Origin: an uncultured Pelagibacteraceae bacterium
GTDB lineage: Bacteria > Pseudomonadota > Alphaproteobacteria > Pelagibacterales > Pelagibacteraceae
NCBI GenBank assembly: GCA_902558815.1
Contig: CACEFF010000003.1
Span: forward strand, 28,723-92,722
Direction: 5' to 3'
Length of the DNA stretch: 64,000 nucleotides
In this document: piece by piece, positions 57,137 to 60,617 of the stretch
Layout: the number at the start of each line of letters is the position of its first letter
How positions within the stretch are numbered: the stretch's first letter is position 1
Notes under the pieces: model-generated
Told to the model about the DNA's origin: nothing
Seen by the model: the letters and a program-made list of their open reading frames with translations, nothing else
Database searches by the model: none
Translations under genes and position numbers: made by a program

Positions 57137-58700
57137 TTAGTTGCTATTTTTTAAACAAGATTGAGGTATCAATATTCCTTTCCTTTTGTGATCAAAAGAA
57201 TATGGAGCTTCAATTAATTTATAATTCTTTAAATCATAATTATTTTTAAAATAAAAAATATCTCTTATATCAATTAAAATTATCAAACTATCATTGGTCA
57301 ACTTATTTTTGATCAAACTTTTAATATCGACGTCATAATGACGTAAAAGAATTTCATGATATCTCTCATTTTTGATAAAATATAAATATTGATTGGATTT
57401 AAAATACTTATTTGCAATCATATAAATAAATACATCATTTGTGTAATTAACAAATTCTTTAACATTTTTACATTGTTCTTCGATTAACATAATATTTTGA
57501 TCAAAAAAATTGATTGTTGACCAAGTTCTTGGACTCCATTTTTGAGAAATAAAATAATTAATATTTTGATTAATTTTATTATCTTCTAATTCAGAAAATC
57601 GCGGAAAAAACTTGTTATTTTCAGTTTTAATTGGAATCGCAATATTGCAAAATAATTGTAATAATATCAAATAAGATACTAGTTTTACATGTTTAATTTT
57701 AAATTTTTCTAAAAAATAAAAGATAGATATTATTCCCACTACTGGTCCAGTTGAAAATCTAAAGATAGTAGGATTGTGGATCGTTGAAAAAAATAATAAT
57801 AATGAAATTATTGAAATTAAAAATATATCATTTTCTTTATCAGAAAAATTAATTCTTTTTATCTTTTTAATTAAAAAATTAATTATTATTAAGTAGAAGT
57901 ATTATTAAAAAAATATAAAAGTATGTCTGTGTAAATATATTTTTTGATAGTAAAATTTTAAAATATTTAATTGATAGATTTATTAAGTTAGTATCATATA
58001 TCTCAAAAAAAGTACTATTTAGCATGAAAGTTTTGATCCAAAATTTATGCAATGAGAAAGTAGATAAATAGAGATGAAAACAAACTAAAGGCAAGATAAA
58101 GCCAAAAATACAAAATAAAATTTTTTTATTTTTATAAAATTTATTTAAAAAAATTTGAAGAAATAATATGATTACACTTAAATAAAGAAAATTTTCATAT
58201 ACAAGAGAGGCTAAAGACAAAACAAATCCAAACAAAAATATTCCTAGATTTGATCTATCGGATAAAAAAAATAATGACAAAACCAGTAAAAAATAAAATT
58301 GGTAATTATACCAAGGATGGTTTGCAAATGGATGTAGCAGAAAAATGAATAAGCAAATTAATAAAATGTTTGAGAGATTTAAATATTTTTTAGCTGTTAG
58401 GCAAATTATGAAATTTCCAATGGTAAAAAAAAATGAAGAGGTATATAAAAGATAAATAACATTTTTTTCAAATATAGATAAAACAACTGACTGAGTTAAT
58501 GTTGAAAGAAAACCATAATGAATGAAAAAATCCTTATAAGGCAACATATTATCTTTTGTCAAATCAATTGCACTTTGAGCTACTAGCCCCCAATGCATTG
58601 AGTCGTAGATAAATTGTGCCTGAAAAAAACTTCCAAAATTACCTATCAGAAAAAAGATTAATAATATTAAAATTAGATTATTCTTATTTAGTTCATACAT
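57137..58700 (-). pseudogene. Split polytopic membrane protein (glycosyltransferase-like), probable single gene interrupted by a frameshift
   Basis: ORFs 57879..58700 and 57137..57739 are in different frames; the downstream frame stays open upstream of its listed start to about 57901, reading ...INFLIKKIKRINFSDKENDIFLISIISLLLFFSTIHNPTIFRFSTGPVVGIISIF. Confidence 0.65.
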
Positions 58701-58706
58701 TAAAAT

Positions 58707-58979
58707 TTATTTTTGGATGTTTAGACGATTAATAACCGGTTGATATTTAGTCAAAATTTTATTTATCAAATTTGAGTAGTAATCAATTTCTTCTTCGGTT
58801 AATTCCTCCTCACTGGCTTTCTCTAAAAAATCATCTATTCTTAGAAATATAAAATTGTTAAATCTTTCTGAATTTAAAAATGAAATAATTTTGTTTTCTG
58901 CATAACTTTTTACAAAATTAAAAGAATATATTAACAAAATTAATACAGTAAAAATTAATAATATATATTTTGTTTTCAT
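58707..58979 (-). CDS. Small hypothetical protein with N-terminal TM/signal anchor
   Basis: 90 aa MKTKYILLIFTVLILLIYSFNFVKSYAENKIISFLNSERFNNFIFLRIDDFLEKASEEELTEEEIDYYSNLINKIL; 6 nt before the next minus-strand gene. Confidence 0.55.
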   Translation of the reverse strand: MKTKYILLIFTVLILLIYSFNFVKSYAENKIISFLNSERFNNFIFLRIDDFLEKASEEELTEEEIDYYSNLINKILTKYQPVINRLNIQK

Positions 58980-59034: not shown

Positions 59035-59190
59035 ATGTTTAAAAAAAAAATAAATTTTCGCAGAAGAAATTTCATAAATATTAGTCTAAAAAGTTTGATT
59101 TTTTTTGGATTATTTTTTTCGATAAACAAAAGTGAAGTAGATATACCAAAAAAAAAACTTAGTTGGATATTAAGTATCAGCGACCTATGA
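59035..59190 (+). CDS. 51-aa Tat-signal-like peptide upstream of GMC oxidoreductase
   Basis: Not in ORF track. MFKKKINFRRRNFINISLKSLIFFGLFFSINKSEVDIPKKKLSWILSISDL*; RRNFI plus hydrophobic stretch; TGA overlaps ATG 59187 as ATGA. Confidence 0.6.
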   Translation: MFKKKINFRRRNFINISLKSLIFFGLFFSINKSEVDIPKKKLSWILSISDL

Positions 59191-60617
59191 TACTAGATGA
59201 TAACACTATTCACGATATATCATATGACGCTATAATTTGTGGAAGTGGACCTGCGGGAGTAAGTTTAGCAATTGATTTGGAGAGAAGTGGAATTAAATCT
59301 CTTATAATTGAAGCAGGAGATGAATTCTATAGTGAAGAGGCTCAAAAAAAATATATTGGTAAAGTGGAAGGAAGCTTTCCAAAAGATTTGAGTTTGCTTA
59401 GATTAAGTCAATTTGGTGGTACTACTGGACATTGGGGTGGAGTATGTAGGCCTTTAGATGATTATGATTTTAATCAATGGCCAATAAACAAAGAAGAATT
59501 AAATAAATTCAAAATTCCTACTAGTAATTTTTTAAACATCAAAAACAATTTTGGAGAAAAACAATTAAATTCTAATTTAAAAATTATTGAATTTTTACAA
59601 TCTGATTTAAGAATTTATGAAAAATATTACGAGTACATAAAAGAGTCTAAAAATATATTTTTAATCTTAAATACCTCAATAACTGATATTGTCTTAAATG
59701 ATAAATCAGTCAAATCTATTTTTATCAAAACACCTTTTAAAAAAATTGCCATTAAATCAAGACTATTAATTCTAGCTTGTGGCGGAATAGAAAATTCTAG
59801 ATTACTTCTTTGGTTTAGGGAAAAGAATAAAAATTTTCTTAAAGATTCACCGATAGGAAAATATTGGATGGAACATCCATTTAAACTAATAGGCTCAGGT
59901 ATTGCAAACTTTGCAAAGGTAAGGGAAAAATTTAAAAACGATTTCTATGCTTTTGATAATTTCAGAAACTGGGGAAATTTTACTGTTAGCTTAGCTCCTA
60001 CAAAAAAAATGATAAAAAAAAAAGACATATTAAATTCTGGAGTTTTTTTAACACTGCACGACAGGGACAACACCTCATTAAAAAATAATATAAAAGATTT
60101 GTTATGTGTAGCTCCAAAACTGTCTACTAAAATAGTAGATTTATTTAATAAAAAGTTATTATGTGGATTAAGCGTCAGCTCATCATGGGAACAAGATGCA
60201 GAAGTATTTAACAAAATTACTTTAACTAAAAAGATAGATCATACTGGAATACCAGAAATTAAACTTGATTATAAAATCTCAGAAAAAACTATACAAACGG
60301 CTAAAGAAATGGTTAGTCAAATTGGTGAATACTTTATTTCTAATGATCTTGGAAGAATAGCTTTTGATCAAAATATAATGGAAAGAAAAAATTTTCTTTC
60401 TGATGCTGGTTATCATCACATTGGGGGTACAAGAGCAGGTTCAGACGAAAATCTATCAGTAGTCGATGAAAACTTGAAAGTATTTGGAATGGAAAACTTT
60501 TATGTCCTTGGCAGCTCAGTATTTCCAAGTGGAGGGCACGCAAATCCAACTTATACCATAGTACAATTATCATTTAGATTATCTGCGCATTTAAAGAAAA
60601 AATTATTAGAAGTTTAA
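59187..60617 (+). CDS. GMC family FAD-dependent oxidoreductase
   Basis: YDAIICGSGPAGVSLAIDLERSGIKSLIIEAG ... GGTTGHWGGVCRPL ... YHHIGGTRAG ... LGSSVFPSGGHANPTYTIVQLSFRLSAHL. Confidence 0.9.
   Translation: MILDDNTIHDISYDAIICGSGPAGVSLAIDLERSGIKSLIIEAGDEFYSEEAQKKYIGKVEGSFPKDLSLLRLSQFGGTTGHWGGVCRPLDDYDFNQWPINKEELNKFKIPTSNFLNIKNNFGEKQLNSNLKIIEFLQSDLRIYEKYYEYIKESKNIFLILNTSITDIVLNDKSVKSIFIKTPFKKIAIKSRLLILACGGIENSRLLLWFREKNKNFLKDSPIGKYWMEHPFKLIGSGIANFAKVREKFKNDFYAFDNFRNWGNFTVSLAPTKKMIKKKDILNSGVFLTLHDRDNTSLKNNIKDLLCVAPKLSTKIVDLFNKKLLCGLSVSSSWEQDAEVFNKITLTKKIDHTGIPEIKLDYKISEKTIQTAKEMVSQIGEYFISNDLGRIAFDQNIMERKNFLSDAGYHHIGGTRAGSDENLSVVDENLKVFGMENFYVLGSSVFPSGGHANPTYTIVQLSFRLSAHLKKKLLEV

Follow-up and report, generated by a model that had tools for sequence, protein, structure and literature searches.

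A short twin-arginine gene overlapping a GMC oxidoreductase gene in an uncultured Pelagibacteraceae bacterium, and its candidate role as a minimal Tat hitchhiker subunit

The window considered here, that is, the whole 64,000-nucleotide stretch of DNA that was analyzed, is from an uncultured Pelagibacteraceae (SAR11) bacterium and carries, on its forward strand, a short open reading frame at 59035..59190 (51 aa plus a TGA stop codon). This mini-ORF is absent from the existing annotation, i.e., as a gene it has been overlooked, and its protein, which starts and ends as MFKKKINFRRRNFI...WILSISDL and in full reads MFKKKINFRRRNFINISLKSLIFFGLFFSINKSEVDIPKKKLSWILSISDL, matches nothing in Pfam or NCBIfam. 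Its parts, from N- to C-terminus, are a twin-arginine motif, R9-R10-R11-N-F-I, of a Tat-type n-region (59059..59076), seen both in the sequence and in pooled relatives; a hydrophobic h-region, LIFFGLFFSI (59095..59124), seen as well in the hydropathy of relatives; and then, within the roughly 20 aa which follow the signal, a C-terminal tail, WILSISDL (59164..59187). The tail is an instance of what is described here as the W-x-L-x3-D element, a proposed docking element given its conservation and its profile match to full-size small subunits. The TGA (59188-59190) overlaps the ATG, beginning at 59187, of the gene which follows, and this ATGA stop/start overlap (59187..59190), along with the spacing seen in relatives, points to translational coupling.

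That following gene (59187..60617, forward strand) encodes the mini-ORF's partner, a 476-aa GMC oxidoreductase. Its family membership is indicated by a GMC_oxred_C domain (Pfam, E=5.8e-20), by an FAD-binding GxGxxG motif (GSGPAG, 59241..59258, with G19 and G21 conserved), by a presumed catalytic histidine, and by a fold match. The histidine, His410, lies in an HHIGGT(R) region (60411..60431) and is invariant in alignment A1, while N453 (60543-60545) is nearly invariant in that same alignment. From what is known of the GMC family we presume these two to be the catalytic His/Asn pair. As to fold, the closest matches for an AlphaFold model of a homologue (L104) are the fructose dehydrogenase large subunit and pyranose oxidases. 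Ahead of its GxGxxG motif the protein has only 18 residues, too few to accommodate its own signal peptide; the start is similarly close to this motif in relatives, with the catalytic partner there also being signal-less.

Neighboring genes in the window encode an O-antigen ligase, GT2 and GT4 glycosyltransferases, an acyltransferase 3, a GDP-mannose dehydratase, and an epimerase. The sequence-only reading of this DNA had described a 51-aa ORF with an RRRNFI motif, a hydrophobic stretch, a short remainder, and an ATGA at 59187-59190, with this ORF preceding a GMC gene lacking its own signal and the two lying together in a glycan island, all of which is as found here. Divergent from the mini-ORF is a 90-aa ORF (58707-58979, reverse strand) which has an N-terminal membrane segment and which occupies the same divergent place, at 44-49% identity, in the closest SAR11 relatives (L099-L101, L103, L104). 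Beyond it, and also on the reverse strand (57137-58700), is a gene for a protein of about 520 aa with multiple membrane passes. That gene is split by a frameshift at ~57,870-57,915 but is intact in L099, and the frameshift may represent sequencing error, phase variation, or a pseudogene.

A search of the GTDB collection passed 563 relatives of the GMC protein in one scan, of which the best 80 were kept and examined. These were retrieved using an alignment as query; a single-protein query of genome contigs and viral contigs retrieved none, and from viral contigs the alignment query returned distant GMCs only. Directly upstream of the GMC gene in 73 of the 80 best loci is an ORF fitting the pattern '[RK]R ... 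W-x-L-x3-D-(0-3)-stop', as applied to reading-frame segments of 38 aa or more. Three more were recognized by eye, i.e., in L115, with a tail of WFFDINDL, in L130, where the upstream region is masked but the tail is present, and in L102, which is at a contig edge but again with the tail present, such that the mini-ORF is kept in 76 of these 80 loci. In L122 and L140 the region is cut by a contig edge, and L146 is the sole locus among the 80 with no mini-ORF detectable upstream. In L162 a Tat-type ORF (MRYTRRLFLIVGLG...) directly precedes the GMC gene without possessing a W-x-L-x3-D tail, and may be a divergent form or instead an unrelated escort.

As a control, the same pattern was applied to all 7,558 reading-frame segments of these same 80 loci, resulting in 74 matches, 73 of them directly before the GMC gene, which places the association of mini-ORF with GMC far beyond chance. 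The remaining match is in L178, where a second Tat mini-ORF, ending SRWIVRAEDL, is found 161 bp after the GMC gene and may begin a second pair in tandem. The mini-ORF is a real, conserved gene. The earlier suggestion of a coupled Tat mini-subunit is borne out by its conservation along with its GMC partner in these 73 loci of 80; a lack of conservation of RRxFI or of the reading frame, which would have told against that suggestion, is not what these loci show.

Within the host's own family a GMC match was seen in 22 of 297 genomes, and for the 15 relatives L003-L017 (38-63% identity), whose loci were inspected by eye, a short ORF ends at the GMC start in all except L017. In wider searches the arrangement recurred in other parts of the phylum, with hosts including SAR11, SAR86, Rhodobacterales, Halomonas, Burkholderiales, and Pseudomonas. 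The Nitrospira member is from one MAG and the Myxococcales members are likewise all from one MAG, so that both of these phyla need confirmation. An intact mini-ORF is present in Halomonas sp. PA16-9. The upstream ORF of Azospirillum thermophilum carries a hypothetical-protein annotation, with the assigned start leaving out the twin-arginine region that would be expected. Gene spacing is tight: among 72 relatives, 67 have values from -11 to +2 nt. In L053 and L057, by contrast, the mini gene is found downstream of the GMC gene and retains the same tail, which thus is not a by-product of start-codon overlap.

Among those 72 relatives the small partner carries a twin-arginine pair, as RR in 63 and as KR in nine (including some SAR11 members), with the second position after the pair being F (45) or L (17) and a hydrophobic stretch then following. 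This is a Tat-type signal upon the small partner rather than upon the enzyme, and the host genome possesses a TatC gene (E=1.5e-72). Between the end of the scored hydrophobic window and the tail W there are, at the median, 20 residues, and the segment before the tail is basic in SAR11 while reading approximately vvvNGWiLkrsDl elsewhere. The proteins end with W-x-L-x-x-x-D plus zero to two residues, one residue following the D in 56 of the 72. In a set of 37 tail sequences from other genomes, a set which overlaps with the best 80, the W is found in 37/37, the L in 35/37, and the D in 36/37. The most conserved part of the mini-protein is, as judged from these alignments, its C-terminal W-x-L-x3-D tail rather than its signal.

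The same tail is seen in larger proteins. Beside more distant GMCs (L067, L068, L069, L073, L080, L093) are full-size Tat small subunits of 109-137 aa which end DGW[VIL]LxRxEA, with a consensus of ...vvlDGWvLaRtEArLcALaal. These are unnamed, that is, Pfam and NCBIfam provide no family for the two tested, and a PDB search with a profile of the full-size subunit gave nothing significant, nor was a PDB sequence relative found for the mini-protein. Like the mini form they have a Tat signal, a DGW[VIL]LxRxE tail, and an adjoining GMC gene; unlike it they have a middle region of about 60 aa, absent from the mini-protein, along with a longer C-terminus. The W-x-L-x3-[D/E] of the full-size tail is found also in the mini-protein. 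With hhalign, the full-size tail matches non-SAR11 minis at a probability of 86-88% (E 3e-6 to 5e-6, over 15-16 columns), a value which falls to 12.7% with SAR11 minis pooled in, and this link of mini to full-size is one of about 15 aligned columns. In a tree of 70 GMCs, those partnered with mini subunits, with full-size subunits, or with neither cluster by group (six label changes, with no shuffle as low), and the window GMC falls within a well-supported SAR11 mini clade. Most simply, the mini form would be a full-size subunit minus its middle, though the reverse direction, i.e., full-size from mini, may instead apply.

Other short or Tat-bearing partners of redox enzymes were considered as well. 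Proteins of Gluconate_2-dh3 (PF13618) resemble the present case in that a Tat-bearing small subunit adjoins a GMC subunit, and a kinship with gluconate 2-dehydrogenase small subunits had been suggested, but that suggestion was not supported: there is no Pfam match at E<=1 and the hhalign probability is 0.1%. A PF13618 match in this genome (G000:C3:40275-40463) is below cutoff at 19.7 bits, contains an in-frame stop, and was taken as chance. For the FAD-SLDH small subunit (PF12318) there similarly is no Pfam match at E<=1 and hhalign gives ~1% or less, a weaker negative since the family's side of that comparison consists of two sequences only. Formate dehydrogenase region TAT target proteins (TIGR02811) are alike in being very short Tat-signal proteins beside a redox enzyme, but both the enzyme and the tail are different, and the match, from one protein, runs through the signal and is below cutoff, at 14.8 bits vs. 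48.45. In the open literature searched, no paper on the mini-family was found.

Together these observations make it likely, in our estimation, that the mini-ORF encodes a minimal Tat hitchhiker, or escort, subunit of the adjacent GMC oxidoreductase, one for which the tail would dock, the Tat system would export, and the enzyme would be active within the periplasm. Coupling of the genes would result in mini-protein and GMC being made together, with the GMC folding and taking up its FAD in the cytoplasm. The W-x-L-x3-D tail, probably as a small beta-hairpin, would then bind the folded GMC, the twin-arginine signal would carry the resulting complex through the Tat translocase, and the periplasmic GMC would there oxidize an alcohol, probably on a sugar.

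Such a hairpin is seen, at low confidence, in predicted structures. AlphaFold2 was applied to mini-GMC fusions of two relatives in which one stop separates the frames, that stop being read as Gly (L104, SAR11, and L124, an Alphaproteobacteria MAG), with a structure alignment consisting of same-frame fusions plus GMC rows. Mean pLDDT was 87.1 and 89.9, respectively, with the GMC part well folded. In both models a signal helix is followed by a short hairpin, with the tail W in its second strand, but the pLDDT there is low, ~53-65, and neither model places the tail confidently on the GMC.

There are precedents for escort by a Tat-bearing partner. In the FAD-glucose dehydrogenase of Burkholderia, a GMC subunit without a signal has the Tat-bearing gamma subunit as its hitchhiker; the C-terminal tail of gamma, which is hydrophobic and includes Gly157-Phe158-Trp159, contacts the catalytic subunit, forming a lid over the interface (PMC6719666). 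That system is like the present one in combining a small Tat protein, ending in a Trp-containing tail, with a signal-less GMC. It differs in that the gamma subunit is built of five helices, with a length well above 100 aa, and operates together with a haem c subunit and a 3Fe-4S cluster. By analogy, the mini-protein would have kept just the two small-subunit parts which the escort model needs, i.e., the signal and the Trp-containing tail. In E. coli hydrogenase and PaoABC, unlike here, the signal is found on a full-size subunit, and one that is cofactor-bearing. For both the hydrogenase small subunit and PaoABC, partners lacking a signal are exported by way of the signal that one subunit carries (PMC10924467, PMC4273604).

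From a different perspective, the mini-protein could be mainly a membrane anchor or accessory subunit, e.g., one serving electron transfer to quinone, with its Tat-type signal uncleaved and export only a partial role. Of the 72 relatives, only 19 show a clear AxA-like cleavage site, and the post-signal part in SAR11 is basic and short; cofactor-binding residues are nevertheless absent, with only those ~20 aa following the signal. This we view as unlikely, and an anchoring role in any case is compatible with an escort role.

A regulatory leader peptide or coupling device, that is, an ORF whose amino-acid product is irrelevant, could explain why the ORF sits so tightly against the GMC gene, its stop overlapping the start, but is largely refuted, and has very little probability, as motif and tail are conserved at the amino-acid level, dN/dS is well below 1, and the gene sits after the GMC in L053 and L057. 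Nei-Gojobori estimates for the mini-ORF are dN 0.02 / dS 0.34 (L085-L086), dN 0.05 / dS 0.43 (L083-L084), dN 0.11 / dS 0.27 (L016-L041), and dN 0.17 / dS 0.55 (L006-L007), and while single values are rough since the sequences are short, all of those from close pairs point to purifying selection. For pairs further apart, among them those involving the window, dS is saturated or high and dN is 0.26-0.64.

It is about equally improbable that both frames are one gene, with programmed frameshifting or stop readthrough fusing a Tat signal to the GMC: in many loci the frames do overlap, by a few bases, and in some loci they are the same frame with a single stop between, but offsets vary (-11, -4, -1, 0, 1, 2, 9, 18, 19, 43), as does the stop codon (TGA, TAA, TAG), the GMC has its own start codon, and gene order is reversed in L053 and L057. 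That the ORF is instead what is left of a larger small subunit, in decay and functionless today, had been raised earlier, and full-size relatives of 109-137 aa do occur beside related GMCs, but this is scarcely credible, appearing already to be contradicted by conservation data, i.e., a widespread family whose short form is kept across several classes, a near-invariant tail, and purifying selection in close pairs.

Returning to the escort reading, we consider it reasonably probable, if less so than the role of the single ORF, that these proteins constitute an unnamed, widespread micro-hitchhiker family, consisting of an export signal and a ten-residue docking tail, derived from a larger subunit minus its middle, and possibly the smallest natural escorts of folded enzymes. 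As to substrate, SAR11 pairs are often in glycan regions. Outside of SAR11, some have glycosyltransferase or sugar-nucleotide type genes nearby (L125, L132, L141, L165) and often they are amid housekeeping genes (L124, L137, L156, L158), in both cases as read from N-termini. In L139 (4569-7522) the pair is beside DprE1/DprE2-like genes and a UbiA-type prenyltransferase, also as read from N-terminal sequence only, a setting which hints at lipid-linked arabinose chemistry. A sugar alcohol or a lipid-linked sugar is a reasonable guess, no more, as to what is oxidized.

If this reading is correct, then a Tat escort needs only a signal and a short docking motif. The pair would represent a compact natural system for the study of Tat complex transport and of the folding check that precedes export, and the mini-protein a possible tag for exporting folded enzymes. 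There would be, too, an overlooked gene beside many GMC genes otherwise read as cytoplasmic (563 relatives, with the best 80 examined). For SAR11 in particular, it suggests that glycan islands can encode a periplasmic oxidase.
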